Below are positions 4,005-42,064 of a stretch of DNA of 64,000 bases, one piece after another. The translations under genes were made by a program, and so were the position numbers. Origin of the DNA: Aquilaria yunnanensis (taxonomy: Eukaryota > Streptophyta > Magnoliopsida > Malvales > Thymelaeaceae); the NCBI GenBank assembly GCA_039654915.1, contig CM077595.1, positions 91,615,501 through 91,679,500 on the forward strand, given 5' to 3'. Position 1 is the first letter of the stretch. Each line of letters starts with the position of its first letter. Below the pieces are notes generated by a model. It had not been told where the DNA came from and searched no databases. It was given only the letters and a program-made list of their open reading frames with translations.

Positions 4005-4609
4005 TGTGGCAACGTCGAGGTCTTCTGGAGTCGCCACCAATCGGTTTACCTAGGTCGATTGGACACCTTAAAATTGGTCTGCGAGAGTTCAGGGATCGGG
4101 AGTACGGTTACGCTAAAACAACTTTGTTATAGCGCCCAAAATTGGCACCTTAGTTGATTTTAATTTTGTTTTGCTTTGCTTTTAGAAAATATTCAGTTAA
4201 TTTTTAAACTAGAAATTTTAACTGAATTAATCGGATGCGGATTTTTAAATTAATTTATATAAAACTTGATACTTCCGAACCATGGACTCTGCCGAGTCAT
4301 TTGGACACGGAAGATTTTGATTCCGAACCATGGACTCTGCCGAGTCATTTGGACACGGAATTTGGTGAAATTTTAAACAATTTTATCCATATTGTAAAAA
4401 TATGGATTTTTATCTTTTTATTTAATTTATTTATTTAAAAAATTTGATATTTTCCAAACCGTAGATCCTGCCGGATCATCCGGATATGGAAATTGATTTA
4501 TCGTAATTATTTAATTCTTATTATTATGAAATTAATTTTTAAATGGTAATTCTTTTTGTTTATGAATGATTTTTAATACTAACTAAAAAATTTATCTTTA
4601 TATTTTTAC

Positions 4610-4850
4610 TTCTTTTTTTACTTTCTTTCTTATCTTTCTTTTATTTTTCTTGTCTTTTCTTTCTTTCTTTTCTTTTTCTTATCTTTTCTTTTATTTTTTT
4701 TTATCTTTCTTTTCTTTTTCTTATCTTTTCTTTTATTTTTTTTTCTTATCTTTCTTTTCTTTCTTATCTTTCTTTTATTTTTCTTTCTTATCTTTCTTTT
4801 ATTTTTCTTATCTTTCTTTTTTTTTTTTTATTTTTTTCTTGTTTAATGAA
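4610..4850. repeat. CTTT-rich pyrimidine microsatellite in LTR
   Basis: Run of TTTCTTTTC/TTATCTTTC units. The matching tract in the right LTR (39020-39420) is about 200 bp longer, the largest difference between the two LTRs. Open frames across it are composition artefacts. Confidence 0.85.
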
Positions 4851-6934
4851 GGATATTTATTATTTAAACAATTACTTAATTTATAAAAGAATTCAAAATT
4901 AATTAATTTTTTTATAAGAAAGTTAATTAATTAATCTTGATATTTATTTTATGTTTATTCAAAAAAAGAAATAAATTAATTAAGAAAGATTTATATTTTA
5001 TGTTATGTTTGTTCTTTTTATTTAATAAAAGATAAACAAAAAAAAAATTATTAAATCAAGATCTTATTTATTCAGTAAAGAAACCAAAAATTATATGTAT
5101 ATTTTAAAATAATAAAAGTCTTAATATTTTATTTTGTTTTATTTTGTTTTGATAAAAGATTAACCAAAAGTAATTGTTTAATTAAGAAAATCAAAAATTT
5201 ATATGTATATTTTAAACAAAAGAAGAAAAGTTTTGATATTTATTTAATTTGTTTTGGAATAAAATATTATTTAACCAAAAAGTTATATGTATTTTAAAAC
5301 AAAAGTTTTGATATTTATATTTTTCTGTATATTCTTTTTTGTTTAATGAAAGATTTTTTTAATTTTAATTTATATCTCTGAAAATATATAAGTCTAAAAT
5401 ATCTAAGAGAAAATTTAAATTTTTATTATTTTCAAAATCATTTGACTAAGATTTTTATAAAGGAAACAAAAATTTATATCTTTTCATTATTTTAAAAAGA
5501 AATAAGTAAAAATATTACTGAATAAAATATTAGCACAAAATTTTTATTCTTTTTATTCTTTTTATTAATAAAGAAAAAAAACTAAAAAGTTATATTTTAT
5601 TATTTTAATAAATAATTAATATATTACTCCAAAGTTTTTTTATTTTTAATAAAGAAAAATTTATTTATATATTTTATTTAAAAATATTTCCAAGCCATGG
5701 ATCCTGGCGGATCATTGGGTCATGGAGTTTTAATTTTTGTTAAATTTTAATTATAATTTTATTGGATTTTTCTTGAATTTTTAATTTTAAAGATATGTTT
5801 AAAAAGAATTGATTTGTATATTTTTTTAGAATTATTTAATCATTTCTATTTATTAATTTTAACAAAAAGGAATAAAAAGTCAACTTTGTTATTTTTAAAG
5901 AAATAATAAAAAATAAAAATATTTGGCTTTTAAAAATGATTTTTTATTAGCCTTAATAATTAATTACAAAATAACCTTCTTTTAATTTTCATTTATTTAT
6001 TTATTAGTAAAGGGTAAAGGTGAATTAAATAAAAATAAAGTGGGGCTTTTTGGCCATCCACTTTAAAAATAAATAATAATAAAGGTTAGCAAAGTTGATT
6101 AAATTAATTAACAACAATAATAAAAATTAGCCAAATTTAATTAATTGTTAACAACAATAATAAAAAGTTAGTCAAGTTAATTAATTAACAACAATAATAA
6201 AAAGTTAGCCAAGTTAATTAATTAATAACAATAATAAAAGTTAGCCAAATTAATTAATTGTTAATTAACCAAATTAATTAAATTAATTAATTAACAACAA
6301 TAATAAAAAGTTAGACAATTTAATTAATTATTAACAACAATAATAATAAAGGTTAGTAAAAATTAGCAAGTTAGTTTTTAGTTGTTAATAACAACAAAAA
6401 AAGAAAAAAGCTTAGTAATAATAGCAATAATAAACAAATAAATAAACAAGTAAAAAAAAGTAAAAGAGTTAATTAATTAATTTTCTGCAAAGACAAAATA
6501 AAAAGGTTAGTGACTTAATAGAAAGAAATTGAAAAGATGATGGGTGAAACAGGGGTTTACCCTTTTGAATTAAAATTTTGAATTCCTGGGAAACGAAAAC
6601 AGAGCACACGCGAGGGAGGAAGGGGGGGCGACGGAGCGCTGCGACGGCGTGACGGTAGCACGGCGGCGGCGTGACGAGACGACGACGGCGGAGTGGGGAG
6701 GCGACGGGCGACGGCGTGACGGCAGCGACGGAGCAAAAGAGAGGAGAGACAGCGAGTGAAACAGAAGAGAGAGAAAGGAAGAAGATGGTCTGATCGTAAG
6801 AAAACAAAGTTTGGGACTTTCTGGGCAGAGGGAGGATAAGCTAGGGAATAAGGCTGTAATTTTATCTTTTTTTAAAACGGAGCTCTAAGCTTTTTCTCTA
6901 TTTTCTTTCTGTATTCAGCACTAAATTTGGAGGC

Positions 6935-6944
6935 CTATTTATAG
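6935..6944 (-). promoter_or_regulatory. TATA box of outer LTR (left copy)
   Basis: The minus strand reads CTATAAATAG, inside a CT-rich/AT-rich promoter-like setting and upstream (in the element's sense) of a GC-rich leader. It is the best candidate for the U3/R border; the right LTR has the same site at 41556-41565. Confidence 0.7.
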
Positions 6945-7437
6945 AGGAAGTTTGGCCGAACTGTTGATGGATAAATTAATAAAAAATTTCAAACTTATCT
7001 TTTAAATTGGTAAAATGACAATTTCAGTCCTTTACGTCTCTCAGCCTCTTGATAAGTTCCTGAAGCTTCTGATTTTGACAATTTTGTCGTTTTCTGTCAA
7101 TTTGGGCCAGAAACGTCGGTCGACCCAAAAATTCATGTGACAAACTACCAAATGCTCCTGGAACTTTCAGAATTTGTCAATTTTTCCCGAAACTTCTTAA
7201 TTTTGTCATTTTTACCTCAAACTTTTAAATTTTGCCATTTTTTTGGAGTTTTCTTTTTTTCTTTCAAATACACACATATATCATTTTAAATCAAATCTTC
7301 ACAAAACAAAAATGTATTTTAAACTAATTAAAATTTTTAGTAATAATAATAATAATAAAAATAATAATTTTTTATTTTCTTTTATTTAATTTCTTTTAAA
7401 AAAATTTTTTATGGTCGGACGAAATTGGGTGTCAACA

Positions 7438-7452
7438 GCTGCCCCCCTTTGC
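7438..7452 (-). promoter_or_regulatory. Polypurine tract of outer element
   Basis: The minus strand reads GCAAAGGGGGGCAGC directly before the TGTTGACACC start of the 3' LTR. This is the expected place and composition for plus-strand DNA priming and fixes the element's orientation. Confidence 0.88.
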
Positions 7453-7499: not shown

Positions 7500-10085
7500 C
7501 CGGCTTAGCTAGGCATTGAAAACCTTTTCGCCGCCTAAATCCTGAGGTTAAGGAACTCTCCTTAGAACCCCGGCGATAGGAGCTCTCCTATCGTTGAAGG
7601 AAAATTGATTGTTTCTGAGGCAAAGGTTCTATCCTTAAAACCTCGGATTGATTGATTGATTTCGAAGCAAAGGTTCCATCCTTAAAACCTCGAATTGATT
7701 GATTGATTTCGAGGCAAAGGTTCCATCCTTAAAACCTTGAATTGATTGATTGATCTCGAGGCAAAGATTTCATCCTTAAAACCTCAGATTGATTGATTGA
7801 TTTCGAGGCAAAGGTTCCATCCTTAAAACCTCGGATTGATTGATTGATGTTGAGGTAAAGGTTCCATCCTTAAAGCCTCGAATTGATTGATTGATGTCGA
7901 GGCAAAGGTTCCATCCTTAAAACCTCGGATCGATTGATTGATTTCGAGGCAAAGGTTCCATCCTTAAAACCTCGGATTGATTGATTGATGTTGAGGTAAA
8001 GGTTCCATCCTTAAAACCTCGAATTGATTGATTGATCTCGAGGCAAAGGTTCCATCCTTAAAACCTCGGATTGATTGATTGATTTCGAGGCAAAGGTTCC
8101 ATCCTTAAAACCTCGGATTGATTGATTGATGTCGAGGTAAAGGTTCCATCCTTAAAACCTCGAATTGATTGATTGATCTCGCGGCAAAGGTTCCATCCTT
8201 AAAACCTCGGATTGATTGATTGATTTCGAGGCAAAGGTTCCATCCTTAAAACCCCGACACTAGGAGCAGTCCTACTGTTGATTGTTTTCGAGACAAAGGT
8301 TCCATCCTTAAAATCCCGACGATAGGAGCAGTCCTACCGTTGATTGTTTTCGAGACAAAGGTTCAATCCTTAAAATCCCGACAATAGGAGCAGTCCTACC
8401 GTTGATTGTTTTCGAGACAAAGGTTCCATCCTTAAAATCCCGACGATGAAAATTGATTATTTTCGAGGCAAAGGTTTCATCCTTAAAACCCCGATGATGA
8501 AAATTGATTATTTTCGAGGCAAAGGTTCCATCCTTGAAACCCTGATGATGAAAATTGATTATTTTCGAGGCAAAGGTTCCATCCTTAAAACCCCGATGAT
8601 GAAAATTGATTGTTTTTGAGGCAAAGGTTCCATCCTTAAAACCCCGATGATGAAAATTGATTATTTTCGAGGCAAAGGTTCCATCCTTAAAACCCTGATG
8701 ATGAAAATTGATTATTTTCGAGGCAAAGGTTCCATCCTTAAAACCCCGATGATGAAAATTGATTGTTTTTTAGGCAAAGGTTCCATCCTTAAAACCCCGA
8801 TGATGAAAATTGATTATTTTCGAGGCAAAGGTTCCATCCTTAAAACCCTGATGATGAAAATTGATTATTTTCGAGGTAAAGGTTCCATCCTTAAAACCCC
8901 GATGATGAAAATTGATTGTTTTTGAGGCAAAGGTTCCATCCTTAAAACCCCGATGATGAAAATTGATTATTTTCGAGGCAAAGGTTCCATCCTTAAAACC
9001 CCGATGATGAAAATTGATTATTTTCTAGGCAAAGGTTCCATCCTTAAAACCCCGATGATGAAAATTGATTGTTTTCGAGGCAAAGGTTCCATCCTTAAAA
9101 CCCTGACGAGGCAAAGGTTTCATCCTTAAAACCCCGATGATGAAAATTGATTATTTTCGAGGCAAAGGTTCCATCCTTAAAACCCCGATGATGAAAATTG
9201 ATTATTTTCGAGGCAAAGGTTCCATCCTTAAAACCTCGGTGATGAAAATTGATTGTTTTCGAGGCAAAGGTTCCATCCTTAAAACCCCGATGATGAAAAT
9301 TGATTATTTTCAAGGCAAAGGTTCCATCCTTAAAACCCCGATGATGAAAATTGATTATTTTCGAGGCAAAGGTTCCATCCTTAAAACCCCGATGATCAAA
9401 ATTGATTTTTTTCGAGGCAAAGGTTCCATCCTTAAAACCCCGATGGTGAAAATTGATTGTTTTCGAGGCAAAGGTTCCATCTTAAAACCCCGATGATGAA
9501 AATTGATTATTTTCGAGGCAAAGGTTCCATCCTTAAAACCCCGATGATGAAAATTGATTATTTTCGAGGCAAAGGTTCCATCCTTAAAACCCCGATGATG
9601 AAAATTGATTGTTTTCGAGGTAAAGGTTCCATCCTTAAAACCCCGACGAGGCAAAGGTTCCATCCTTAAAACCCCGATGACGAAAATTGATTATTTTCGA
9701 GGCAAAGGTTCCATCCTTAAAACCCCGATGATGAAAATTGATTATTTTCGAGGCAAAGGTTCCATCCTTAAAACCTCGGTGATGAAAATTGATTATTTTC
9801 GAGGCAAAGGTTCCATCCTTAAAACCCCGATGATGAAAATTGATTATTTTCGAGGCAAAGATTCCATCCTTAAAACCCCGATGATGAAAATTGATTGTTT
9901 TCGAGGCAAAGGTTCAATCCTTAAAACCCCGATGATGAAAATTGATTATTTTCGAGGCAAATGTTCAATCCTTAAAACCCCGATGATGAAAATTGATTTT
10001 TTTCGAGGCAAAGGTTCCATCCTTAAAACCCCGATGGTGAAAATTGATTTTGAGGCTAAGGAGCTTTCCTTAGGACCTCAAGCGA
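7500..10085. repeat. Tandem hairpin array, 47/51-bp units (outer element)
   Basis: About 50 head-to-tail units. The first half has 47-bp units (CGAGGCAAAGGTTCCATCC core plus GATTGATTGATT); the second half has 51-bp units with GATGATGAAAATTGATT. Each core can fold on itself: GAGG..AAGG pairs with CCTT..CCTC around a short loop. The last unit (10050-10080, GAGGCTAAGGAGCTTTCC...) keeps the pairing with different loop bases. Because 51 is divisible by three, long repetitive frames stay open on both strands (17-residue periods); these are not supported as genes. The matching array in the nested element is at 22000-24760. Confidence 0.9.
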
Positions 10086-10595: not shown

Positions 10596-11225
10596 TTATG
10601 GGAGTGAACTGGTCGGGAAAGACTGTCGTGTCCAGTCTATCTGAATCATTGCTGGATCTGGTTCAGGAACAAAAGCTTGTATTTTATCTAGCAATTCTTC
10701 AGCAGTTGTTGCGGATATTATGATTCGCCGTGCCACTCTTGATATGAAATTCTTCTGCATAGCATAATCCATAAAAGCTATCAGACCTGTAAAGAAATTG
10801 TTAACATTTAAAAGCCCAATGGGTTTCTTATGCAAATTAAGTTGGGCCATGGAAGCAATTTGAAAGACTTCTCCCAATGTGCCAAAACCACCTGGTAGAG
10901 CGATAAAAGCATCAGCATTTAAAAGCATTTGTAACACACGCTCTTGCAAATTTTTAACCACTAATTCTTCTCCAATCGTGCCCCCAGAAATAAATTTCAG
11001 AGGTCCAGGGATAATGCCCAGAACTTGACTTCCTCCTAGAGATGCTGCTGATGCTACACCTCCCATTAATCCGACACTATCTCCTCCATAAACTAAATGT
11101 ATTTTTCGCTCAGCTAATACTCTACCCAAATGGTTGGCTGCTTTTAAATACTCTTCATCTTTTCCAGGAAAAGCCCCAGAAAATACACAAATACTTCGGG
11201 ATTTACGAGTTGGGGTTTTCTCCAT
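10596..11225 (-). CDS. LOG-like: LOG-family cytokinin riboside 5'-monophosphate phosphoribohydrolase (retrotransposon cargo, older copy)
   Basis: LOG enzymes release active free-base cytokinin from its nucleotide in one step. The ORF gives 209 residues from the chosen start. The family fold is visible: SICVFSGAFPGKDEEY near the N-terminus, the VYGG-SVGLMG phosphate loop (about residues 45-55), and the hallmark PGGFGTLGE (111-119), matching the family PGGxGTxxE with its catalytic Glu, preceded by an Arg in LQERVLQM. I start at the second Met because LOG homology begins just after it; the frame is open for 29 more codons (to 11312), but that part is hydrophobic and unlike LOG. The gene has no introns, whereas plant LOG genes normally have several, which suggests capture from an RNA copy. 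Odd: GGGS of the phosphate loop is GGDS here, a change absent from the nested copy, so activity is doubtful. It lies last in the cargo block, sense to the element. Confidence 0.85.
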   Translation of the reverse strand: MEKTPTRKSRSICVFSGAFPGKDEEYLKAANHLGRVLAERKIHLVYGGDSVGLMGGVASAASLGGSQVLGIIPGPLKFISGGTIGEELVVKNLQERVLQMLLNADAFIALPGGFGTLGEVFQIASMAQLNLHKKPIGLLNVNNFFTGLIAFMDYAMQKNFISRVARRIIISATTAEELLDKIQAFVPEPDPAMIQIDWTRQSFPTSSLP

Positions 11226-11817: not shown

Positions 11818-12366
11818 CTATGAATCGGTGATTTGCATCTCATCTAGCTTTCTCACAAACTGGCAAACAGGGTCGTTTAGGGTCAGATTCCCAAGATTGT
11901 AACGATCTCGTTCTTTTTGGAAAATTATCCATAATCCAACAACCTCAAATTGCACTATTCCGCAAGAATGCGCTTCAAGAACCTCTCGAATATCTTCTAG
12001 AGATTCCTTACGCAAGCCATTCTTAATGAATCTTATTCTATCATTACGATTTCTGGTGATCACTCCTGGAGAACGACATTTATTGCTGCAAATCCACCAT
12101 CCACAATTATGACAAACGCCTAGCCTCTTTGCTCTTCTTTTTTTGGCATAAGCGCTTTTACCAAAGCCGGGCATACGGGGAAAGAACGCTTCTGGAACTT
12201 CACCAGCTGAACGAACCTTAGCTTCAATTAGCCACCGCACATTATCAGGAATGCCTTTGTGCATAAATACTTTGAATCGTTCACATCTAGCTTGATAAAT
12301 CTTTTTAAGAACATTTATTGGGAAGGAAGGAAAATACTTTCGTAGGGCGGAAAGAGAAGACTCCAT
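11818..12366 (-). CDS. Flexivirus NABP-like cysteine-rich protein, copy 3 (outer)
   Basis: 182 residues from the Met aligned with the other copies (the frame stays open to 12381). Three parts are visible: an N-terminal helix-like region (MESSLSALRKYFPS...), a basic patch (GKSAYAKKRRAKRL) and a zinc-finger-like C-x2-C-x4-C-x3-C (VCHNCGWWICSNKC), followed by a DRIRFIKNGL segment and a C-terminal tail. This arrangement resembles the small cysteine-rich nucleic-acid-binding proteins at the 3' end of Betaflexiviridae genomes (Viral_NABP / Carla_C4 families), several of which suppress RNA silencing. The resemblance is my reading of motif order, not a computed match. It lies between copy 2 and LOG, all in the same sense. 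Other zinc-knuckle nucleic-acid-binding proteins are the alternative. Confidence 0.75.
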   Translation of the reverse strand: MESSLSALRKYFPSFPINVLKKIYQARCERFKVFMHKGIPDNVRWLIEAKVRSAGEVPEAFFPRMPGFGKSAYAKKRRAKRLGVCHNCGWWICSNKCRSPGVITRNRNDRIRFIKNGLRKESLEDIREVLEAHSCGIVQFEVVGLWIIFQKERDRYNLGNLTLNDPVCQFVRKLDEMQITDS

Positions 12367-12582: not shown

Positions 12583-13131
12583 CTATAAGTCGGGGATTTG
12601 CTTCCCATCCAGTTTCCTTACAAACTGACAAACAGGGTCGTTTAAAGTCACATTCCCAAGATTGTAACGATCTCGTTCTTTATGGTAAGTCCTCCACAAT
12701 TTGACAATTTGACCTTGCACTTTTTCACAAGAATGCGTTTCAAGAGTTTCTCGGATATCTTCCAGAGATTCCTTACGCAGGCCATTCTTAATGAATTTTC
12801 TTTTATCTTCACGATTTGTGGAGATGTATCCTAAAGAGCGACATTTAGTATTACAATTCCATCGCCCACATTTATAACACACGCCTAGTCTCTTTGCTCA
12901 TCGCCTTTTGGCATAACGGCTTTTACCTAAACCGGGCATGCGGGGCATAAATGCATCTGGAACTTCACCCGCCAAACGGACCTTAGCTTCAATTATCCAC
13001 TGCACATTATCGGGAATGCCTTTGCGTGTAAAAACTCTGATTCTTTCACATCTAGCAAGGTAGATCTTTTTAAGGACTTTTATTGGAAGGGAAGGAAAGT
13101 ATTTTCGCAGTGCAGAAAGAGTAGAATCCAT
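12583..13131 (-). pseudogene. Flexivirus NABP-like protein, copy 2 (outer), nonsense-broken
   Basis: Same 182-codon plan as the flanking copies: MDSTLSALRKYFPSLP start, GKSRYAKRR basic patch, then the finger VCYKCGRWNCNTKC and a RKFIKNGL segment. The frame is continuous but interrupted by one TGA at about 12895-12897, inside the basic patch, where sister copies have an Arg codon (AGA). A truncated 77-residue product lacking the finger is all that could be made. The matching copy in the nested element (27340-27888) is intact. Confidence 0.78.
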
Positions 13132-13420: not shown

Positions 13421-13969
13421 CTATGAGTCGAGGATTTGCTTGCCATCCAGTTTTCTTACAAGCTGGCAAACAGGGTCGTTTACAGTCAGATTCCCGGGAC
13501 TGTATCGTTCTCGTTCTTCATGAAAAATGCTCCATAAACCAAGAAGTTCACATTGCACAGATCCACAAGAATGTGTCTCAAGAGTCAATCGGATATCATC
13601 CAATGAGTCCTTACTCAGGCCATTCTTAATGAATCGTATTTTATCTTCTCGATTATCAGAGATCATTCCTAAAGAACGACATTTAGTATTACAAGTCCAC
13701 CGTCCACATTTATGGCAGACTTGTAACCTTTTCGCTCTTCGCTTTTTGGCATAAGAGCTTTTGCCTATACCAGGCATGTGAGACACAAATGCCTCTGGGA
13801 TTTCACCTGCCAGACGAACCTTGGCTTCGATTAACCACCGCACATCTTCAGGGATTCCTTTGTGCATCAGAACTCTTAATCGTTCACAGCGAACTTGGTA
13901 GATCTTTTTGAGAATGTTCATTGGGAGAGAAGGAAAATATTTTCGTAAGACAGAAAGAGTAGGATCCAT
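13421..13969 (-). CDS. Flexivirus NABP-like cysteine-rich protein, copy 1 (outer)
   Basis: Intact 182-residue ORF starting MDPTLSVLRKYFPSLP. The basic patch GKSSYAKKRRAKRL covers about residues 69-82. The finger has Cys 85, 88, 93 and 97 (VCHKCGRWTCNTKC), followed by EDKIRFIKNGL near 108-118. It is the first of three tandem copies in the element's sense. Upstream (about 14030-14085) is a segment with ACCGACTTAAGAGTCACGG and GTATCCGCCGCTTAACC. A diverged version of that segment precedes copy 2 (about 13190-13240), so the duplication unit included the 5' flank. No TATA box is obvious before this copy. Confidence 0.78.
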   Translation of the reverse strand: MDPTLSVLRKYFPSLPMNILKKIYQVRCERLRVLMHKGIPEDVRWLIEAKVRLAGEIPEAFVSHMPGIGKSSYAKKRRAKRLQVCHKCGRWTCNTKCRSLGMISDNREDKIRFIKNGLSKDSLDDIRLTLETHSCGSVQCELLGLWSIFHEERERYSPGNLTVNDPVCQLVRKLDGKQILDS

Positions 13970-14164
13970 TTTCTAGAGGGAAGTAAAAGAAAGAAGAGAG
14001 GAAAGAATTAGTTATTATGGGCAACTGAGAGAACCGACTTAAGAGTCACGGAGTACCGTATCCGCCGCTTAACCGGAAAAGTAGATCCTACTTTATTTTG
14101 ATGTGATAGATATTTTTTTATCTTGGATATTCCATCGAGCTAACGTCGATCCAGTCCTCGATTA

Positions 14165-25903: not shown

Positions 25904-25935
25904 TCCTATCCTTACTCTTGTGAGAAAAGAGGATA

Positions 25936-29986: not shown

Positions 29987-30178
29987 CTATCTCCTCACTT
30001 TTAAGTCTACACACATTAATGAATAATGGTTTGGCCTTAAAGAAAAACTTTCATCAATTTGCAAAGCTTGACAAAGTAATTTACGGTCTTTGTTTTTAAT
30101 TAAAATATCCTGCCATTCTTCCCTTTCCAACTCGAAGACATAAACTGTGCAAGGCAATAAGGTAGAAACATGATTCAC
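29987..30178 (-). pseudogene. Unrecognised conserved ORF remnant (EEWQDILIKNKDRK), nested copy
   Basis: 63-codon frame with VYVFELEREEWQDIL and KDRKLLCQALQIDESF, homologous to 15236-15436. It stops where the outer copy continues (a frameshift or deletion near 29985). Family not recognised. Confidence 0.33.
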
Positions 30179-30199
30179 AAGGATAGCCTTTTAGCTGAA

Positions 30200-30625: not shown

Positions 30626-30629
30626 TTTG

Positions 30630-31440
30630 ATTATGGTGAAAAACTCAATAGTGATGACCTCAACTTGCCACTCTTTCCAGAAAGTTAGACCTCATCTGTT
30701 GCCCCCCAACTATTGTGATCTTTATGCATGCTTGGTTTGAGGGTTGCTTTTGTGTTCTAAACCGCCTTTGCAGGTTTTCAGTCTAGAATCCATATCTCAC
30801 TTTTTTTTTCTAGTTTGAGCCCTTTTTCCTTTTTTTTTTTTTGTTTTTGTTTTTGTTTTCTTTTGTTTCCCTTTTTTTTTTTTTTTTGTGAGCTATGGTG
30901 ATGACATACTTGATAACTCTCTTGAAGTGAGATGACTCAAGTGGCCTTGCTTGCTCGTGTTTGTTCTCAGTTCTTTTTGGTTTTGAATTTTCCCTTGTTG
31001 GCTTTTTGATGGAAGGGATGAACTTTTTCCTTTTCGGAGTTTTTGTTACAAAGAACCAAGATCATAGCCTTCTTGAAATGAGATGATTCAAGTGGCTTTA
31101 TTTGCTTCTCAGTCTCTTTTTTTTTTTTTTTGGATTTTCCCTTTAATGGCTTTTTGATGGAAGGGATGAACTTTTTCTTTTCGGAGTTTGTGTTGCGGAA
31201 AACTGAGAACCTTTTTTTTTTTTTTTTTTTTTTGTTTTGAGCATTTATGAGAATTGGGAGGCCACTGAAGTCATTTAATATGAGAGCTACTTTGTTTGGA
31301 AACTAACCCCAAACTTCTTGCAAGGATGTTGATAACCACTGTGAATTCTTTTTGAGGGTTGAGGTGCAACATATGAAATCTTTCTTACTAGATTTGGCAG
31401 CACTTTCAAGATCATTACTATCAAATTTCCCTTAACTTTT
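30630..31440. other. T-rich internal spacer (nested)
   Basis: Counterpart of 16101-16900, with several T runs of 15-25 and the same duplicated TCAAGTGGC segments. No gene is seen. Confidence 0.45.
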
Positions 31441-31445
31441 TATTT

Positions 31446-31811
31446 TCACCCACGAGTAGTATCGTTTTCAAAGTAAAGTGTGATAGCAATAATGGATAGT
31501 ATAATGGAAAGGAGTGAGAGATGGATATAAAAACGGAATTTTGGTAAGAAGTGGTAGAATGTGTAGGTGTAATAATTGAATTTTTGGTAAAAATTGGTAG
31601 AATGTGTAGAAGTAATAATGGAATTAAAAAGTGGTAGAATGCACACGCAACATCTTTTTGTTAGAGAACAAAAAGAATTACCGGTTGTCGAAAAGTAAAG
31701 TGTGATGGCAATAATGGATAGTATAATGGCAAAGAGTGTAAAAATGGAAAGTAATAGAATGCACGCATCACATCTTTTTGTTGTACCAGAAAAAGAATAG
31801 CAGGTGTCCAT
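31446..31811 (-). CDS. Putative small membrane protein with duplicated Cys/hydrophobic module (nested)
   Basis: 121-residue open frame made of two modules. Each starts with a TKRC..CIL motif (TTKRCDACILLLSIF; LTKRCCVCILPLFNSI) and ends in a strongly hydrophobic stretch (LSIIAITLYF) of membrane-spanning length, with further hydrophobic segments between. It begins MDTCYSFSGTTKRCD and ends NDTTRG. The outer element carries a broken version. The duplication at DNA level means the open frame could be chance on a repeat, but it is complete in the young copy and broken in the old one. Function unknown; position just after gag, sense to the element. Confidence 0.35.
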   Translation of the reverse strand: MDTCYSFSGTTKRCDACILLLSIFTLFAIILSIIAITLYFSTTGNSFCSLTKRCCVCILPLFNSIITSTHSTNFYQKFNYYTYTFYHFLPKFRFYIHLSLLSIILSIIAITLYFENDTTRG

Positions 31812-32040
31812 TTAACAAAGACTACACCCTAGATTCTGGACTAAATCTAGGAGATTTACTATTAAATTACTTTTGCAAGCTTTCAAAGATACAAGTTTAT
31901 TCAAAGGATTCCCTGTCATTCAAAAGTGTGTGCGGACTGTTAGGTCAGATCTGACTTGGAGCCCTTCCAAAATTAATGTAATTCCAGCTCAAAATCTTCA
32001 CTTTCAATTACCAATCACATCGGGCCTAGCAACTTGAACT

Positions 32041-32338
32041 CGGCGAATTGTTGGACCTTGAGTTTCAGTATGACAGAATTTTCAGTTGAATGTCCAATTG
32101 AACCTTTTTGATAATCATATTTGGCATTTGGGTCATTCCAACTTGGAAGATGAGGCTACTTGGTCTTTGCTACCGTTGATATAGGTGATAGCAGAATGCT
32201 TTCTTCAGCCAAAACTGTGATTAACTTTCTGTCAATAATGAATTTCATTTTTTGGTGTAATGAGGAGGGAATTGCTCCGGCCATATTTTTTATCTTGGAC
32301 TCTATATCTATGAGACGTCCTTCGGTTTGTTCTGCCAT
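32041..32338 (-). pseudogene. Scrambled gag/protease remnants (nested)
   Basis: Three short pieces in a row. (1) The gag N-terminus MAEQTEGRLIDIESKIKNMA (from 32338), matching the outer gag start. (2) PSSLHQKMKFIIDRKLITVL, which resembles the protease-RT linker region of Tat/Ogre polyproteins. (3) A decayed nucleocapsid-type module with the KGSIGHSTEN core, its Cys lost. The order and gaps show repeated internal deletion of a once-autonomous ancestor. Confidence 0.6.
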
Positions 32339-33247
32339 TAGTCTTGTTTGGAGCCGAGTTGGATATCGGTGTTGAGGTCCAATTTTACCTTTTTAAAGTG
32401 AGATTCATTTTACTAGATTTTACATGTATATGATTGATGCAATGGATGCATGCCATATAAAGTGAGATTATGTTTTTATCAGACTTTATATGCACGTGAT
32501 TAATGTAATGCATGCATGCGATGGATGAGTTTGCTTATCCATTATCGTAGAACTTCAAAACTTTTAGTTGTCATTATAAAGACCAAAAAGTTAGTAAAGT
32601 TTAATGCGTGGTTTTGATGTATGAAGAGTAATTGCACAAAACAGAAGTACAAGAAAAGAAAGATAAGGTTATTAATAAGTTAAATAATAATTAACAACTC
32701 ATGAAGTATTATGGATAAACAAGTTAAAACCATACGAAGAAAAGTGTAGAGTAACAACACAGCATAACAAGGATATACTTATGGCGTTGGTAAAATGGTA
32801 GAAATTCTATGGTCAGTTCTATGGTTAAGTGGGGAGTTCTATATGCATAAGGTGGTTTATCAAAAAGGCAGGGGATAGTTCCCGAATCCCGTCACTAAAT
32901 CATAGTGACGGCCCGATTCCTTACCCTCTAGGGTTTATATAAGGAATGGATTAATTCGAGTCGTAGCTTTTCGTGGGCCCATGCAGAGACTAACCGTCTC
33001 AGAAGGCAATACACTACTTTGCTACTTTGAAACCGGTGAAGGCTTGGAGACCGTGGCCTCACAAGGACAGCAACACCAATTCCGCTTAGAAAGAATCGTG
33101 TTTGATTTAAGGAAGCTCGGGTATAGAGCTTCATTTTGTGAATGCGTTATGCATGTTTACTTAAGTAAATATAATATATAAATCCACATAAAAATAAACA
33201 AAACAGAACAAAATAAATCAACTTTTAGGCTTGACTCACTAACCAGG
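32339..33247 (-). other. 5' leader of nested element
   Basis: Between primer site and gag remnant. It contains one to two units of the TTATATGCACGTGATTAATG repeat (32400-32530), expanded in the outer element, and a leader ORF of about 68 codons (32928-33134, minus) whose core SLHRFQSSKVVYCLLRRLVS is also in the outer leader (38088-38300). The ORF may be a uORF; no function is assigned. Confidence 0.5.
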
Positions 33248-33266
33248 ATCCCCAGTGGAGTCGCCA
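33248..33266 (-). promoter_or_regulatory. Primer binding site (nested)
   Basis: The plus strand ATCCCCAGTGGAGTCGCCA ends in CCA like a tRNA 3' end, so the element RNA carries its complement, three bases inside the 5' LTR. Ogre-type elements are described as using tRNA-Arg; this matches that type, but the tRNA identity is not checked. Confidence 0.82.
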
Positions 33267-33269
33267 AGC

Positions 33270-36200
33270 TGTGGCAACGTCGGGTTTTCTGGAGTCGCCA
33301 CCAATCCGTTTACCTAGGTCGATTGGACACCTTAAAATTGGTCTGCGAGAGTTCGGGGATCGGGAGTACGGTTACGCTAAAACAATATTGTTATAGCGCC
33401 CAAAATTGGCACCTTAGTTGATTTTAATTTTGTTTTACTTTGCTTTTAAATAATTTTCAGTTAATTTTCAAAATTAGAAATTTTAACTGAATTAGTCGAA
33501 ATGTGGATTTTTAAGTTAATTTGTATAGAATTTTATACTTCCGAACCATGGACTCTGCCGAGTCATTTGGACACGGAATTTGGTGAAATTTTAATCCATA
33601 TCGTAAAAATATGGATTTTTATCTTTTTATTTAATTTATTTATTTTAAAAGTTAATATTTTCCAAACCGTAGATCCTGCCGGATCATCCGGATATGAAAA
33701 TTAATTTAAATTTAATTATTTAATTAATTAATAAACGGTACACGCAAACTGAATTTTCCTAAATGTGATTTTTTTTTATTATATTAAAACTAATTTTAGA
33801 TTAACTATTAAAAAGTCTATCCAAATCTAATTATGTTTAATATTAATTCCTAAACTAATTCATAATTATCCAAACAAAACTATAAAAGGAAAACATAAGT
33901 AAAACAATGACCAATTTGTAAATCAGAACAACATTAGAGGCTCAATTAGACAAATCAAATAAATTCAGGGGTAAATTATTTATTAAAAATATTTATCTAA
34001 ACTAATCACACAATTATGTTTAATATTAATTTCTTTAAGTTTATTCATACTCTTAATCAAATGAACAAACAAAAACATAAAAGAAAATAAACATTAGTGA
34101 CCAAATTGTAAATCGAAACAACCTAAAAGTCTCAGATGAACAAATCAAATAAATCCAGGGAGTAAATTATTTATTAAAATCACCAATCTAACATAATCAT
34201 ATAATTAAACTTAATGTAAATTCCTAAGTTAATTTATGCCTTTAATTAACTAAACAAACAAACAAAAAAAAAACACAAAAAGAAAATAAGTAAATCAGCG
34301 ACTAAATTATGAATCAAAACAACATTGGAGTCTCGATTAGATAAATCAAATAAATCCAGGGGTAAAACTAGAATTATGCCGAACTTATGACTTTCAGATC
34401 AAATCCGGGTCGACAACGGGTTGGTTTGCGATCTGGTTTTCATTATTTAATTTTAATTAATTTTTTTTTTGTTTTGTTTGTTTTAAATAATTTCAATTAA
34501 TATCCAAACCATGGATTCTAACCGAACCACCTGGATATGGACGAAGGATTGATTTCGGATTTTATTAATTACTAAGGGCGGATCTCTGAAATTTGCCATG
34601 TGTTATAAAATTGATCTCTTATTAAATCTCTTCCTAATTTCTAGATGATGAGAAAAGTAAGCATACATGAGCAATTAATTTACTAATTATTCTTATATCC
34701 TATTAATATTTTTTATTTTCAAGATGCATTATGAGATCTAAATTACAATTATAAGAACCAGAAAATATAAAAATGAATTAAACATTCCAAAATGATATGC
34801 CTATATAGATTTAATGACTTAATTTGATAGATGACAAATTAAACAGAACAAAGAGAGAAATCAAAGAAAGTAAAATAAATAAAGAAGTAAGTAAATAAAT
34901 AAATAAGTAAAAAAAAATAGATAGTCAAGTAAGTAAGTAAATAAATCAACCGATGAGTAAATAAAGAGAACAAATAAAAAGAAAACAAACAAAAAAAAAA
35001 AAAACAAAACAAAAGAGACAACATGAAGTAAAACACATAAGTCATATTTTGTATAAACTTAATAATTAAAATTAATGCAAAGCTCAAACAGACAAAATAA
35101 ATAAAACAAAAGAAAAGAGAAATCAATAAAAATCCTGCTGTTAGTGACTGATCTGCGAGATAAAATGAAGTTAGTGACTCATATGAAATAAAATTAGAAG
35201 ATGGAGGATTGAATAAGGGTTTTACCCAAAAAAAAAAACTTTGACTTGGTCAAAATAAAAGATGCGTCTGGCGTCTTCGTCTTCTTCTTTTGTTTTTCCG
35301 GCGTCGGGACGATGGTGGCGCTGCAGCAAAAGGGGACGGCAGGGCGACCGAGGGGGAAGTCTAAGCGCGGCACGAAGCACGGGCGCGGCGTGGTGGAGCA
35401 AGGGAATAGCTTCAGTGGCGGTTCCATCTCCGGAACCGAGGACAGACAGGGAATCTCGACGCCGCCGGTGGCTGTGGCTGATGGACGATGGCGCACTGAG
35501 TAGCTACCTTCAGGCTTCACGAGGTCGATGAAGACGGAGCGAGCGAGGCGGCGAGCAGATGAGGGATTGCGAGAGCGAGCTACGGTCAGCGTCACCGCGT
35601 CTGCCAACTGCCGAGGGAGGCAGCAGCAACAGCAACTGAGATGGATTTATAGCCCAGCCACAGTCGCCAATCATATACCACCCAGCAGGAAATATTTTGT
35701 TCTTTCGAGCGAAAGAGATGAATCGTGGGCGTGGGCCTTGAGCTTGGAAGAGTACGCGGCGAACTTCTGAGGGAGAGGAGGAGGAAACAATTGAAGTAGG
35801 AGAAGGTGAGAGAGAGATCATCCTGGAGAGAGAGAAAGAGAGAGAGAAGAGAGTCGAGAGAAGGAAATTAGTTCTGTGTGGCCAGAGAAGATGGTTGTTT
35901 GCGAGGGAGGAAGGAAAATTGAGAGTGAAAAGCTGTTGTGAGAGAGAGAGAGGGAGAGCCTTCGGGAGAGAGAGAGCTTAGGGAGCAGGTGAGAGATCCG
36001 CTCCAGCTAGGAGCTTCCTGAGTGAGAGAGCTAAGAAGGCCCCCTGCTAAATAGAAACGAGAAGAAGAAAGGAGAAGGCTCCAGAGGGCCTCGAAGTCTC
36101 TGGAGATGAGATTTTTTTATTTTTATTATTATTTTAACTAATAATAAATTTTTAATTTTTAATTTAACACACACAAACAGATATATTATTATATTTTATT

Positions 36201-36348
36201 TATTTTTTTTTTAAACTTATAAAATAAAAATGCCCCCATCCTAAACTAATTGTTATCAATAAATATAAAATATTATTTTTAATTTAATTAATATTTTTTA
36301 ATTAATTAATTTTTTTTTATGAAGGTCGGACGAAATTGGGTGTCAACA
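33270..36348 (-). repeat. 5' LTR of nested element
   Basis: 3079 bp. Compared with 18785-21905 it has one ACCATGGACTCTGCCGAGTC unit instead of two; otherwise it is nearly identical (for example CTTCC/TTTCC near 35297, one change in the GA tract, and GGACGAAATT/GGACAAAATT at the end). Confidence 0.93.
35645..35652 (-). promoter_or_regulatory. TATA box of nested 5' LTR
   Basis: CTATAAAT on the minus strand, in the LTR that would drive the element's transcript. The CT-rich tracts at 35820-36000 lie upstream of it in that sense. Confidence 0.7.
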
Positions 36349-36353
36349 CTTAG
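36349..36353. repeat. Target-site duplication CTTAG (right, nested element)
   Basis: Matches 18780-18784. Confidence 0.92.
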
Positions 36354-36902
36354 ATACCACTGCAATGCTGATTTTGTGAGACTTTCCTGAAAAAGTGCAA
36401 TCCACACCTTTTCATCTTTTGTGAGTGGTTGTAGTTTCCTTAGGAACAGTGTGATGTGAGTGATGGGATCACTCGTTCCGTCGTATTTTACGAAATCCGG
36501 TACTTTAAAATCCGAAGGGATTATGACGTCTGGCACTAAGCAGAGGTCATCCACTGAGAGAGATCCGAATATATTACCTCCTTCAATGGCTCGCAGTCTC
36601 TTCTCTATTGTTTCGAGTTTTTGAGATTTTCCTTCTTCCTTTGGTGGTGTCTTCTTCTCTTCATACACAGTGTCTTGTTTCAGGTGAACACTAGCAGACT
36701 GTCCTGGTTCCTGAAACAGGTTTTCTTGGACTGAGACTCGTTGCGGAGTGAATCCCGGAGGATAAGTGGGATCTTGTGCTTCTTTGATGGGAACTTGAGT
36801 TACTTTCTCCTTGATTAGTTCCATGAATTGTCTTATCTGTTCTGCCATACCTTCTATCTTGGACTCCATCTCTATAAGACGTCCTTCGGCTTGTTCTGCC
36901 AT
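36349..36902 (-). pseudogene. gag: gag, 5' part (outer element), interrupted by nested insertion
   Basis: Starts MAEQAEGRLIEMESKIEGMA and includes the Tat/Ogre capsid landmarks YPPGFTPQ, DLCLVPDVIIP, FKVPDFVKYDGTSDPITH and a FQESLTKSALQWYL segment, then runs into CTTAG and the nested LTR. Its reading frame resumes at 18784. Without the insertion this would be the capsid N-terminal and part of the C-terminal domain. Other breaks are listed for the 3' part. Confidence 0.85.
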
Positions 36903-38402: not shown

Positions 38403-38421
38403 ATCCCCAGTGGAGTCGCCA
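38403..38421 (-). promoter_or_regulatory. Primer binding site (outer)
   Basis: Plus strand ATCCCCAGTGGAGTCGCCA, identical to that of the nested element and three bases inside the 5' LTR. It confirms that 38425-42064 is the 5' LTR. Confidence 0.82.
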
Positions 38422-38424: not shown

Positions 38425-41400
38425 TGTGGCAACGTCGAGGTCTTCTGGAGTTGCCACCAATCGGTTTACCTAGGTCGATTGGACACCTTAAAATTGGTCT
38501 GCGAGAGTTCGGGGATCGGGAGTACGGTTACGCTAAAACAACTTTGTTATAGCGCCCAAAATTGGCACCTTAGTTGATTTTAATTTTGTTTTGCTTTGCT
38601 TTTAGAAAATATTCAGTTAATTTTCAAACTAGAAATTTTAACTGAATTAATCGGATGCGGATTTTTAAATTAATTTATATAAAATTTGATACTTCCGAAC
38701 CATGGACTCTGCCGAGTCATTTGGACACAGAAGATTTTGATTCCGAACCATGGACTCTGCCGAGTCATTTGGACACGGAATTTGGTGAAATTTTAAACAA
38801 TTTTATCCATATTGTAAAAATATGGATTTTTATCTTTTTATTTAATTTATTTATTTAAAAAGTTTGATATTTTCCAAACCGTAGATCCTGCCGGATCATC
38901 CGGATATGGAAATTGATTTATCGTAATTATTTAATTCTTATTATTATGAAATTAATTTTTAAATGGTAATTCTTTTTGTTTATGAATGATTTTTAATACT
39001 AACTAAAAAATTTATCTTTATATTTTTACTTCTTTTTTTACTTTCTTTCTTTTTCTTCTTTTTTACTTATTTTTACTTATTTTTAATTTTCTTTTAATTT
39101 CTTTTCTTTTCTTTCTTTCTTTCTTTTCTTTTTCTTTTTCTTTCTTTTATCTTTCTTTTCTTTTTCTTATCTTTCCTTTCTTTTCTTTATCTTATCTTTC
39201 TTTTATTTTTCTTTCTTATCTTTCTTTTATTTTTCTTGTCTTTTCTTTCTTTCTTTTCTTTTTCTTATCTTTTCTTTTATTTTTTTTTATCATTCTTTTC
39301 TTTTTCTTATCTTTTCTTTTATTTTTTTTCTTATCTTTTTTTTCTTTCTTATCTTTCTTTTATTTTTCTTTCTTATCTTTCTTTTATTTTTCTTATCTTT
39401 CTTTTTTTTTTTTTTGATTTTTTTCTTGTTTAATGAAGGATATTTATTATTTAAATAATTACTTAATTTATAAAAGAATTCAAAAGTAATTAATTTTTTT
39501 ATAAGAAAGTTAATTAATTAATCTTGAGATTTATTTTATGTTTATTCAAAAAAAGAAATAAATTAATTAAGAAAGATTTATATTTTATGTTATGTTTGTT
39601 CTTTTTATTTAATAAAAGATAAACAAAAAAAAAATTATTAAATCAAGATCTTATTTATTCAGTAAAGAAACCAAAAATTATATGTATATTTTAAAATAAT
39701 AAAAGTCTTAATATTTTATTTTGTTTTATTTTGTTTTGATAAAAGATTAACCAAAAGTAATTGTTTAATTAAGAAAATCAAAAATTTATATGTATATTTT
39801 AAACAAAAGAAGAAAAGTTTTGATATTTATTTAATTTGTTTTGGAATAAAATATTATTTAACCAAAAATTTATATGTATTTTAAAACAAAATTTTTGATA
39901 TTTATATTTTTCTGTATATTCTTTTTTGTTTAATGAAAGATTTTTTTAATTTTAATTTATATCTTTGAAAATATATAAGTCTAAAATATCTAAGAGAAAA
40001 TTTAAATTTTTATTATTTTCGAAATCATTTGACTAAGATTTTTATAAAGGAAACAAAAATTTATATCTTTTCATTATTTTAAAAAGAAATAAGTAAAAAT
40101 ATTACTGAATAAAATATTAGCCCAAAATTTTTATTCTTTTTATTCTTTTTATTAATAAAGAAAAAAAACTAAAAAGTTATATTTTATTATTTTAATAAAT
40201 AATTAATATATTAGTCCAAAGTTTTTTTATTTTTAATAAAGAAAAATTTATTTACAAATTTTATTTAAAAATATTTCCAAGCCATGGATCCTGGCGGATC
40301 ATTTGGTCATGGATTTTTAATTTTTGTTAAATTTTAATTATTTAATTAATTACTAATTTTAATTATAATTTTATTGGATTTTTCTTGAATTTTTAATTTT
40401 AAAGATATGTTTAAAAAGAATTGATTTGTATATTTTTTTAGAATTATTTAATTATTTCTATTTATTAATTTTAACAAAAAGGAATAAAAAGTCAACTTTT
40501 TTATTTTTAAAGAAATAATAAAAAATAAAAATAATTGGCTTTTAAAAATAATTTTTTATTAGCCTTAATAATTAATTACAAAATAACCTTCTTTTAATTT
40601 TCATTTATTTATTTATTAGTAAAGGGTAAAGGTGAATTAAATAAAAATAAAGTGGGGCTTTTTGGCCATCCACTTTAAAAATAAATAATAATAAAGGTTA
40701 CCAAAGTTGATTAAATTAATTAACAACAATAATAAAAATTAGCCAAATTTAATTAATTGTTAACAACAATAATAAAAAGTTAGTCAAGTTAATTAATTAA
40801 CAACAATAATAAAAAGTTAGCCAAGTTAATTAATTAATAACAATAATAAAAGTTAGCCAAATTAATTAATTGTTAATTAACCAAATTAATTAAATTAATT
40901 AATTAACAAGAATAATAAAAAGTTAGACAATTTAATTAATTATTAACAACAATAATAATAAAGGTTAGTAAAAATTAGCAAGTTAGTTGTTAGTTGTTAA
41001 TAACAACAAAAAAAGAAAAAAGGTTAGTAATAATAACAATAATAAACAAATAAATAAACAAGTAAAAAAAAATAAAAGAGTTAATTAATTAATTTTCTGC
41101 AAAGACAAAATAAAAAGGTTAGTGACTTAATAGAAAGAAATTGAAAAGATGATGGGTGAAACAGGGGTTTACCCTTTTGAATTAAAATTTTGAATTCCTG
41201 GGAAACGAAAACAGAGCACACGCGAGGGAGGAAGGGGGGGGCGACGGAGCGCTGTGACGGCGTGACGGCAGCACGGCGGCGGCGTGACGAGACGACGACG
41301 GCGAAGTGGGGAGGCGACGGGCGACGGCGTGACCGCGTGACGGCAGCGACGGAGCAAAAGAGAGGAGAGACAGCGAGTGAAACGGAAGAGAGAGAAGGGA

Positions 41401-41960
41401 AGAAGATGGTCTGATCGTAAGAAAACAAAGTTTGGGACTTTCTGGGCAGAGGGAGGATAAGCTAGGGAATAAGGCTGTAATTTTATCTTTTTTTAAAACG
41501 GAGCTCTAAGCTTTTTCTCTATTTTCTTTCTGTATTCAGCACTAAATTTGGAGGCCTATTTATAGAGGAATTTTGGCCGAACTGTTGATGGATAAATTAA
41601 TAAAAAATTTCAAACTTATCTTTTAAATTGGTAAAATAACAATTTCAGCCCTTTACGTCTCTCATCCTCTTGATAAGTTCTTGAAGCTTCTGATTTTGAC
41701 AATTTTATCGTTTTCTGTCAATTTGGGCCAGAAACGTCGGTCGACCCAAAAATTCATGTGACAAACTACCAAATGCTCCTGGAACTTTCAGAATTTGTCA
41801 ATTTTTCCCGAAACTTCTTAATTTTGTTATTTTTACCTCAAACTTTTAAATTTTGCCATTTTTTTGGAGTTTTCTTTTTTTCTTTCAAATACACACATAT
41901 ATCATTTTAAATCAAATCTTCACAAAACAAAAATGTATTTTAAACTAATTAAAATTTTTA

Positions 41961-41995
<35 letters not shown>

Positions 41996-42064
41996 TTTTT
42001 AATTTCTTTTATTTAATTTCTTTTAAAAAAAATTTTTATGGTCGGACGAAATTGGGTGTCAACA
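38425..42064 (-). repeat. 5' LTR of outer element
   Basis: 3640 bp, TG...CA ends. It is longer than the 3' LTR because of a larger CTTT tract (39020-39420). Other differences are small substitutions and short indels, for example an extra GTGACCGC near 41330 in the GC-rich leader. Confidence 0.92.
41556..41565 (-). promoter_or_regulatory. TATA box of outer 5' LTR
   Basis: CTATAAATAG on the minus strand; this copy would drive transcription of the element. Confidence 0.7.

Follow-up and report, generated by a model that had tools for sequence, protein, structure and literature searches.

Nested pol-less LTR retrotransposons of Aquilaria yunnanensis that share NABP-like and LOG-type cargo genes

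Two LTR retrotransposons, one inserted into the other and both lacking pol, carry the same series of accessory genes in the window analysed here (a 64-kb stretch of contig CM077595.1 of Aquilaria yunnanensis): three genes for proteins resembling the nucleic-acid-binding proteins (NABPs) of betaflexiviruses, followed by one for a LONELY GUY (LOG)-type protein. The data suggest that the element keeps these cargo genes because they help it spread. The explanation preferred in the present work, which we consider about as likely to be right as wrong and whose functional part is drawn by analogy from the viral homologues, is that these are trans-mobilised, non-autonomous elements of Ogre/Tat/Athila (OTA) type which would keep a cassette for counter-silencing or host reprogramming.

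Anatomy of the nested elements

Both elements lie on the minus strand and have LTRs that end in TG..CA; in both copies the cargo genes and gag are in the sense of the element.

4005..42064, minus: outer LTR retrotransposon, with the inner one inserted in it (LTR pair; target-site duplication (TSD) AGAAA at 4000-4004 and 42065-42069)
38425..42064, minus: outer 5' LTR (94-97% identity to 4005-7437)
4005..7437, minus: outer 3' LTR (alignment to the outer 5' LTR)
18785..36348, minus: inner LTR retrotransposon, within the outer gag (TSD CTTAG at 18780-18784 and 36349-36353)
33270..36348, minus: inner 5' LTR (aligned to 18785-21905 over 3127 columns, with 6 mismatches and 4 gap openings)
18785..21905, minus: inner 3' LTR (alignment to the inner 5' LTR)
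38404..38421, minus: outer primer-binding-site (PBS)-like sequence TGGCGACTCCACTGGGGA (read from the sequence)
33249..33266, minus: inner PBS-like sequence, 18 bases identical to the outer (TGGCGACTCCACTGGGGA; read from the sequence)
7438..7450, minus: outer polypurine tract (PPT) AAAGGGGGGCAGC, adjoining the 3' LTR (read from the sequence)
21906..21918, minus: inner PPT, identical to the outer (AAAGGGGGGCAGC; read from the sequence)
36349..36902, minus: N-terminal part of outer gag, ending at the inner insertion (open frame; no Pfam match)
17581..18784, minus: rest of outer gag, two frames with stops (Retrotrans_gag 38.5 bits, cut-off 24.1, for 18460-18784)
8402..10049, no strand: outer 51-bp tandem array, lying between the LOG gene and 3' LTR (preceded by 47-bp units at 7604-8253)
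22515..24723, no strand: inner 51-bp tandem array, ~44 copies (repeat analysis)

The internal regions of the two elements have ~90% identity along two aligned stretches of ~4 kb or more; their LTR bodies are mostly dissimilar, the best three matches listed between the 3' LTRs spanning just ~0.7 kb. Because the TSDs differ (AGAAA and CTTAG) and the LTR bodies are largely unalike, the segmental duplication of a single element can be rejected, and the independence of the two insertions, which the earlier note had proposed, is supported. The inner copy is very young: given the 6 mismatches between its LTRs, the lack of any pol that could be found and the reduction of its gag to a remnant, it moved recently, presumably in trans.

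The absence of pol from both elements, also claimed in the earlier note, stands on three results. The longest stop-free sense stretch between gag or the 5' LTR and the first NABP-like gene has 112 aa in the outer element and 121 aa in the inner; Pfam gave no retroelement domain in the 10 scanned of the 14 stop-free stretches of at least 62 aa; and an integrase query derived from a pol-bearing relative, contig L001 (see below), matched nothing in the window at a credible level (E 5 at best). Neither Rfam, at its gathering thresholds, nor ARAGORN gave any match in the 64-kb window. With paired LTRs, a TSD, a PBS-like site and a PPT and no complete gag-pol, both elements are non-autonomous, as had been stated. 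Gag, which had been reported for both copies, does leave traces in each, but neither is intact: the outer gag is split by the inner insertion and contains stops, while the inner is reduced to 23 N-terminal residues and to 59 residues further on that have diverged to 44% identity (E 3e-8).

One piece of the outer gag exceeds the Retrotrans_gag cut-off and is thus a Ty3/gypsy gag. The remainder of that gag we take to be Ogre-like, and TGGCGACTCCACTGGGGA presumably matches tRNA-Arg, a type of PBS linked to Ogre. The type of PBS is described as typical of the lineage, and an aRH domain separates Tat from Athila, in the available part of PMC6317226. The Tat/Ogre membership asserted in the earlier note is tentative: it rests on gag, the PBS-like site, the giant LTRs and the tandem arrays, pol being absent from both elements, but the sole pol-bearing relative found looks Athila-like.

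The cargo genes and the constraint upon them

The order common to both elements is NABP-like genes c, b and a, then LOG, then the 51-bp array.

13421..13969, minus: outer NABP-like ORF c, 182 aa (PF05515 30.8 bits, PF01623 26.7 bits)
12583..13131, minus: outer NABP-like ORF b, one in-frame stop (translation; end inferred from the 182-codon inner counterpart)
11818..12366, minus: outer NABP-like ORF a, 182 aa from the ATG at 12366 (PF05515 27.9 bits, TTG-started ORF)
10596..11225, minus: outer LOG ORF, start matching relatives by alignment, frame open to 11312 (PF03641 106.3 bits)
28137..28685, minus: inner NABP-like ORF c, 182 aa (PF05515 34.2 bits)
27340..27888, minus: inner NABP-like ORF b, 182 aa (PF01623 27.8 bits)
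26575..27123, minus: inner NABP-like ORF a, 182 aa from the ATG at 27123 (PF05515 26.5 bits, TTG-started ORF)
25274..25903, minus: inner LOG ORF, start by alignment, frame open to 25990 (PF03641 106.0 bits)

ORF positions and Pfam scores bear out the sense-oriented series of three NABP-like genes and LOG in both copies. The earlier note's description of the block as fixed holds for the order, which is the same in the two copies, but not for the integrity of every gene, outer NABP b being complete apart from one in-frame stop. All four cargo ORFs of the inner copy are open despite its gag remnant, and that so young a copy should have open cargo but neither an intact gag nor pol suggests selection on the accessory genes themselves.

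PF05515 and PF01623 both exceed their curated cut-offs in all five full NABP-like ORFs of the window, and a basic stretch precedes the CxxC zinc motif, as in the cysteine-rich NABPs and silencing suppressors of betaflexiviruses (carla-, tricho- and vitiviruses). The window proteins differ from these in their 182-aa length, their encoding by a retrotransposon in tandem triplicate and their cysteine spacing, C-x2-C-x4-C-x3-C rather than the C-X2-C-X9-C-X4-C of PVH (PMC3689765, the part available). The top named viral matches by Foldseek of a low-confidence NABP model (pLDDT 61, pTM 0.34) are betaflexivirus silencing suppressor or nucleic-acid-binding proteins at E 0.013 or worse; every viral match stays short of E 0.001, and a model of this quality does not establish that the fold is shared.

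Both window LOGs score far above the PF03641 cut-off of 27 bits and have an intact PGGxGTxxE motif, which also occurs in 110 of the 120 LOG relatives among the matches listed; these two characters identify them as LOG-type, that is, as putative cytokinin riboside 5'-monophosphate phosphoribohydrolases. They match the solved plant LONELY GUY structures 2a33 and 1ydh (E 1.5e-51), but the cargo LOGs group apart from these, in a 116-row plant clade (SH-aLRT 98), and 100 of the 120 relatives listed add an EAR-like LxLxL C-terminal tail, which is new here and which both window LOGs lack. In the outer LOG an aspartate replaces a glycine kept by at least 90% of 21 aligned LOGs.

The constraint differs between the genes. 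Between the two copies, LOG has dN 0.013 and dS 0.205 (ratio 0.063, Fisher p 3e-14), and synonymous changes make up 30 of its 37 differences, compared with 34% among the possible transitions (p 7e-9). NABP c is weakly constrained (dN/dS 0.33, p 0.046) and NABP a not at all (dN/dS 0.94, from 3 synonymous and 10 non-synonymous changes); the inner NABP paralogues, compared pairwise, have dN/dS of 0.25-0.35 (p at most 7e-6). It might be supposed that a host LOG and a virus-derived ORF were caught by chance and are carried along, decaying without function, since transduced genes are known in LTR elements (PMC7264820, the part available), a stop interrupts outer NABP b and NABP a is unconstrained between copies. 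We consider this very unlikely in view of the excess of synonymous changes in LOG and among the NABP paralogues, the full-length relatives across several eudicot orders and the open cargo of the young copy.

The intact PGGxGTxxE motif and the strong constraint on LOG would also be expected if the effect were mainly hormonal, with LOG the key gene, driving up cytokinin and, in the manner of retroviral oncogenes, cell division, and with the NABPs as transcription factors acting in the same direction, as CVB p12 may. This is distinctly improbable; the EAR-like tail of the listed relatives (100 of 120) points to a possible function in the nucleus besides the release of hormone, although the window copies are without it.

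Relatives elsewhere and a possible role

The NABP relatives number 224 matches, with Populus, Xanthoceras and Orobanche named among the 120 listed, of which 104 have the CxxCxxxxCxxxC motif; full-length relatives of both cargo genes occur in several eudicot orders. Cargo genes of these two kinds are therefore present beyond the two window copies, as the earlier note's proposal of an element family implied, a segmental accident being excluded by the TSDs. Three scans of a viral contig collection (NABP alignment, LOG alignment and leader pattern) gave no confirmed locus.

The sole pol-bearing relative found is L001, and no autonomous partner with the LTRs of the window elements was among the finds. 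On L001 a retroelement integrase ORF (194-1594) is followed in sense by an NABP (1787-2347) that passes PF05515 and scores 20.4 against the PF01623 cut-off of 20.9. An RH-like end with one stop runs on in the same frame into the integrase domains, and this pol, which presumably carries Athila-like motifs, looks Athila-like rather than Tat/Ogre.

The position of this NABP after pol, the usual place of env-like and accessory ORFs (PMC7264820, in part), could be read as that of a structural protein. As basic zinc-motif proteins (104 of the 120 relatives listed), the NABPs might serve as a nucleocapsid or RNA chaperone for packaging and reverse-transcribing the element's own RNA, with no counter-silencing and with LOG a tolerated passenger. 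This reading is unlikely: LOG is the more strongly constrained (dN/dS 0.063), which makes it an improbable passenger, and by profile the proteins are nearest to viral NABP families, with relatives that act in silencing or transcription.

L001 also bears on whether the two genes belong together. LOG is absent from the 983 bases following its NABP, and the pairing could be limited to a few recombinant elements, the genes elsewhere occupying separate retrotransposon lineages that meet by template switching. The synonymous divergence of LOG between copies (0.205) is far above that of NABP a (0.025) and NABP c (0.051), so that the elements look like mosaics, and their LTR bodies are largely unlike. 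Reevesia contributes 32 LOG rows from 15 chromosomes among the 120 matches listed and no named NABP among the best 120 listed of 224. This restricted pairing is nevertheless somewhat doubtful, because the full order is common to two independent insertions and because NABP and LOG relatives are found on contigs of equal size (2128, 4511, 8723), which is what points to linkage elsewhere.

Under the preferred counter-silencing explanation, elements without pol, and in the inner case with gag remnants, retain the cassette while Gag and Pol would be supplied in trans by an autonomous relative. The NABP-like zinc-finger proteins may share the activities of their betaflexivirus relatives, which bind nucleic acid and dampen RNA silencing and/or alter host transcription; LOG would release active cytokinin, its tailed relatives (basic LxLxL) perhaps acting in the nucleus as well; and together they might help the family to be expressed and copied where cells divide and form the germline. 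The three NABP paralogues and the tandem arrays could fit a pairing of protein and target repeat like that of VANC, purely as a hypothesis. VANDALs are DNA transposons whose VANC protein is unrelated to the window NABPs, and repeat binding here is hypothetical. The likeness to VANDALs with VANC anti-silencing lies in an element-encoded, here putative, nucleic-acid-binding protein and in tandem repeats in non-coding parts (PMC10398659, in part).

The idea, like the earlier note's hypothesis that the cargo eases silencing and promotes division, agrees with the functions published for the viral homologues in the available part of PMC3689765, namely silencing suppression for PVM and PVH and, for CVB p12, the action of a transcription factor with hyperplasia. 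CVB p12 does not suppress locally induced silencing (PMC3689765, same part), so that suppression is not universal even among the viral relatives. Counted in favour of the preferred explanation are the TSDs, LTRs, PBS and PPT, the young inner copy, the open cargo, the constraint on LOG and the NABP paralogues, the relatives, the integrase-NABP order of L001, the functions of the viral proteins and the names of the top Foldseek matches; counted against it are the unconstrained NABP a, the weakly constrained NABP c, the stop in outer NABP b, the aspartate in outer LOG, the CVB p12 result on local silencing, the zinc spacing unlike that of PVH and the lack of an autonomous partner with these LTRs among the finds.

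A broader and rather speculative extension, which is probably not correct in full, is that a eudicot-wide lineage pairs a virus-type suppressor or transcription factor with a hormone-activating enzyme as a selected "host control" cassette, carried by autonomous elements and outliving gag and pol on non-autonomous ones, perhaps with NABPs matched to their own repeats and a nuclear branch of EAR-tailed LOGs. We know of no earlier retrotransposon counterpart of viral suppressors, and such a cassette, if real, would be the first. A retrotransposon-borne relative of these suppressors would bear on the origin of the viral proteins and on how genes pass between retroelements and RNA viruses.

Among known systems, Ogre/Tat elements with extra ORFs share Retrotrans_gag, a 5-bp TSD, LTRs of very large size and tandem arrays in extended non-coding regions (PMC6317226, Neumann 2019, in part), but the window elements lack pol and have two kinds of sense cargo. 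The prominent extra domains in that survey are the plant mobile domain, Transposase_28 and Athila ORF-1, and its available text has no match for NABP or lysine decarboxylase. A YgdH/LOG domain inside Gypsy elements was reported in LTR-retrotransposon consensuses of Citrus and Populus by a 2022 screen crediting Steinbauerova 2011 (PMC9289625, in part); section 12 of that source contains no NABP, pol-less form or EAR-like tail, and its available text has no match for NABP, Carla or nucleic acid binding. Gypsy elements of orchids that encode an AlkB-type RNA demethylase are likewise giant and keep an added RNA-directed gene whose kind occurs in flexiviruses too, but the enzyme is another, Gag-Pol is present and the affinity is to plants rather than viruses (PMC9289625, same part).

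The LOG half is not new, since LOG in plant Gypsy elements is already published, which qualifies the earlier note's claim of a new pairing; neither NABP-like genes in plant retrotransposons nor the NABP-LOG pairing appeared among the papers listed in the literature searched, judged by titles and abstract starts and mostly outside subscription journals, and Steinbauerova 2011 may mention NABP. Plant Gypsy elements have long been known to carry extra ORFs, but most of these have no known domains (PMC9289625 and PMC6317226, in part). Both cargo genes have well-studied relatives, which makes the role of extra ORFs directly testable.

Sequences upstream of the cargo genes

The leader of the L001 NABP resembles the one before window NABP c:

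14010..14080, minus: conserved leader before outer NABP c (local alignment to the L001 NABP leader)

The alignment scores 87, against 33 for the best of 60 shuffled queries and 44 for the best other-strand match; predicted RNA structure in the leader is no more stable than in shuffles (z 1.08, -0.38, -0.45).

TATAWAW lies 40 bases upstream of LOG and 66 upstream of NABP a in both copies, and for NABP b the distance is 87 bases (inner copy) or 127 bases (outer copy); it precedes neither NABP c nor the L001 NABP. A box 40-100 bases before three of the four ATGs is found in the inner copy (P 0.0004, for a test set after looking and in two related copies), only two being in range in the outer, and these candidate internal cargo promoters are a lead only.

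Directly before the ATG of NABP c stands CCCTCTAG, and directly before the leader on L001 a pyrimidine-rich TGCAG, either of which might be a splice acceptor.

The nested elements and their cargo

The earlier note had claimed two insertions with target duplications AGAAA and CTTAG, and both flanking duplications are confirmed. The arrangement is nested, with the gag of the outer element serving as the insertion site of the inner one:

4005-42064, minus strand: outer LTR retrotransposon, flanked by AGAAA, with TG..CA ends
18785-36348, minus strand: inner LTR retrotransposon, flanked by CTTAG, with TG..CA ends

An identical PBS-like sequence, TGGCGACTCCACTGGGGA, adjoins the 5' LTR of both elements, and an identical purine tract adjoins both 3' LTRs. 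The two inner LTRs align over 3127 columns with 6 mismatches and 4 gap openings. The outer pair differs by 47 mismatches in 2888 columns and 32 in 844 columns, in two alignments which partly overlap, so the outer element inserted earlier and the inner one very recently. At a substitution rate of about 1e-8 per site and year, the insertion ages are of the order of 0.1 (inner) and 1 (outer) million years.

Both elements carry the sense-oriented cargo NABP c, b and a (betaflexivirus NABP-like ORFs) and LOG (a LONELY GUY-type ORF), followed by 47/51-bp repeats common to both copies. The order of three NABP-like ORFs and then LOG, as originally described, was thus found in both elements, with one NABP broken: five NABP ORFs are full-length, and the sixth, outer NABP b, is interrupted by a single in-frame stop. 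In both copies, LOG, NABP a and NABP b are each preceded, at a distance of 40-127 bases, by a TATAWAW box (window positions 11265, 12432 and 13258 in the outer element; 25943, 27189 and 27975 in the inner), which may be a promoter of the ORF's own.

Gag, pol and a pol-bearing relative

The further claim that gag precedes the cargo in both elements holds for the cargo order but not for an intact gag, which is in pieces in the outer element and present only as remnants in the inner one. Outer gag is split by the inner insertion, and its remainder lies in two frames with stops; one piece matches Retrotrans_gag (38.5 bits, cut-off 24.1), and the N-terminal piece has no Pfam match. What is left of inner gag is 23 residues from its start plus 59 residues of diverged sequence (44% identity, E 3e-8). 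Pol, described as missing from both elements, was indeed not detected: the longest stop-free sense stretch from gag or the 5' LTR to the first NABP is 112 aa in the outer and 121 aa in the inner element, a Pfam scan of 10 of the 14 stop-free stretches of at least 62 aa gave no retroelement domain, and an integrase query against the window returned nothing credible (best E 5).

An NABP relative is carried by L001, a 3330-base contig from a prokaryote collection, filed as a Nomurabacteria MAG, which from its content is most likely plant contamination of a public genome record. Positions 194-2347 hold an integrase ORF (rve 60.4 bits, H2C2 48.2), a 192-base gap and, in the same sense, an NABP ORF scoring above the PF05515 cut-off and slightly below that of PF01623; NABP thus stands beside pol at least once. 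The leaders of this NABP and of window NABP c align with a score of 87, compared with control scores of 33 (best of 60 shuffled queries) and 44 (best on the window's other strand). According to PMC6317226, the aRH domain separates Tat from Athila. The L001 frame runs from an RH-like end (one stop) into the integrase without an aRH domain between, and by this criterion and its motifs its pol would be classed as Athila-like rather than Ogre. NABP is perhaps carried on more than one lineage of the Ogre/Tat/Athila (OTA) group.

Divergence and selection of the cargo genes

The two LOG copies show 37 differences, of which 30 are synonymous (dN 0.013, ratio 0.063, p 3e-14), where 34% of the possible transitions in LOG are expected to be synonymous (excess p 7e-9). 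The outer copy has aspartate where at least 90% of 21 aligned LOGs keep glycine. For NABP, dN/dS is 0.25-0.35 among the three inner paralogues (p at most 7e-6) and 0.33 between copies of NABP c (p 0.046); it is 0.94 between copies of NABP a, with 3 synonymous and 10 non-synonymous changes, so no constraint is seen on NABP a between copies.

The dS of LOG (10596-11312 versus 25274-25990) is 0.205, compared with 0.025 for NABP a and 0.051 for NABP c, a four- to eightfold excess, and the immediate LOG flanks differ by only about 2-5% between copies. On this evidence both elements appear mosaic, and recombination between subfamilies is a possible source of the LOG divergence. An exchanged LOG segment could account for part of the low LOG ratio, the protein still being the conserved part.

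Relatives, possible function and remaining window

Searches returned 224 NABP relatives, with Populus, Xanthoceras and Orobanche among the best 120, of which 104 have the cysteine motif, and 2203 LOG relatives, whose best 120 include Reevesia (32), Populus (6), Paulownia (4), Xanthoceras (4), Rehmannia (2), Parasponia (1) and Diplodiscus (1). A quick tree built from 124 rows (both window LOGs, these best 120 of 2203 and two Arabidopsis LOGs) has a 116-row clade (SH-aLRT 98) that unites the window copies with 114 of the 120 relatives, leaving outside the Arabidopsis LOGs, four Xanthoceras models and two other rows; inner forks are often weak (67 of 121 below 80). All 32 Reevesia rows among the best 120 fall in one clade (support 99) and are spread, by locus tag, over 15 chromosomes, a pattern that a transposon burst would give.

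NABP and LOG relatives occur on contigs of identical size (2128, 4511 and 8723 bases). Three shared sizes were observed above 2000 bases against 0.17 expected (p 0.0007) and above 1500 bases against 0.69 expected (p 0.03), and six against 2.8 for all contigs under 100 kb, the cut-offs being post hoc; the matching sizes suggest, without proving, NABP-LOG linkage outside the window.

LxLxL, the pattern of the EAR repressor motif of plants, lies within the last 14 residues of 100 of the best 120 LOG relatives, 97 of these 100 having at least two basic residues side by side within their final 16, and in 0 of 1722 control windows of the same relatives. It requires 15 changes on the tree, and some relatives without it are short models. 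Both window LOGs (10596-11225, 25274-25903) lack this tail and end differently, which rules it out as an explanation of the two elements.

According to PMC3689765, viral CRPs of the NABP family suppress silencing (PVM, PVH), and the p12 protein of CVB is described as a transcription factor which causes hyperplasia and does not suppress local silencing. The top Foldseek matches of an NABP model include betaflexivirus NABPs/silencing suppressors, at E 0.013 or worse and from a poor model. The reading judged most likely is that of an element mobilised in trans, with cargo that would protect or promote the element's expression: the cargo would be expressed, it would relieve silencing or reprogram the cell, Gag/Pol would be supplied in trans, and a new insertion would follow, in this presumed order. 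The pairing had been said to look new, and this stands in part: Gypsy elements of Citrus and Populus that carry LOG/YgdH are already published (PMC9289625), while the literature searched, whose coverage is incomplete, yielded nothing on the NABP component or on NABP-LOG pairing.

Elsewhere in the window, a degenerate 21/43/195-base repeat array followed by TTAGGG-like repeats (493-2883) resembles interstitial telomere-like sequence, and a MITE-like unit (49342-50130) consists of 569 bases between inverted-repeat arms of 110 bases that are 86% complementary. Host genes at 53394-54925 and 56430-59261 comprise K+ transporter pieces and a DnaJ-DUF3444 protein. Among the best 120 of 1350 matches to the latter, identity to named plants is about 50% or lower, and one further match reaches 71%.
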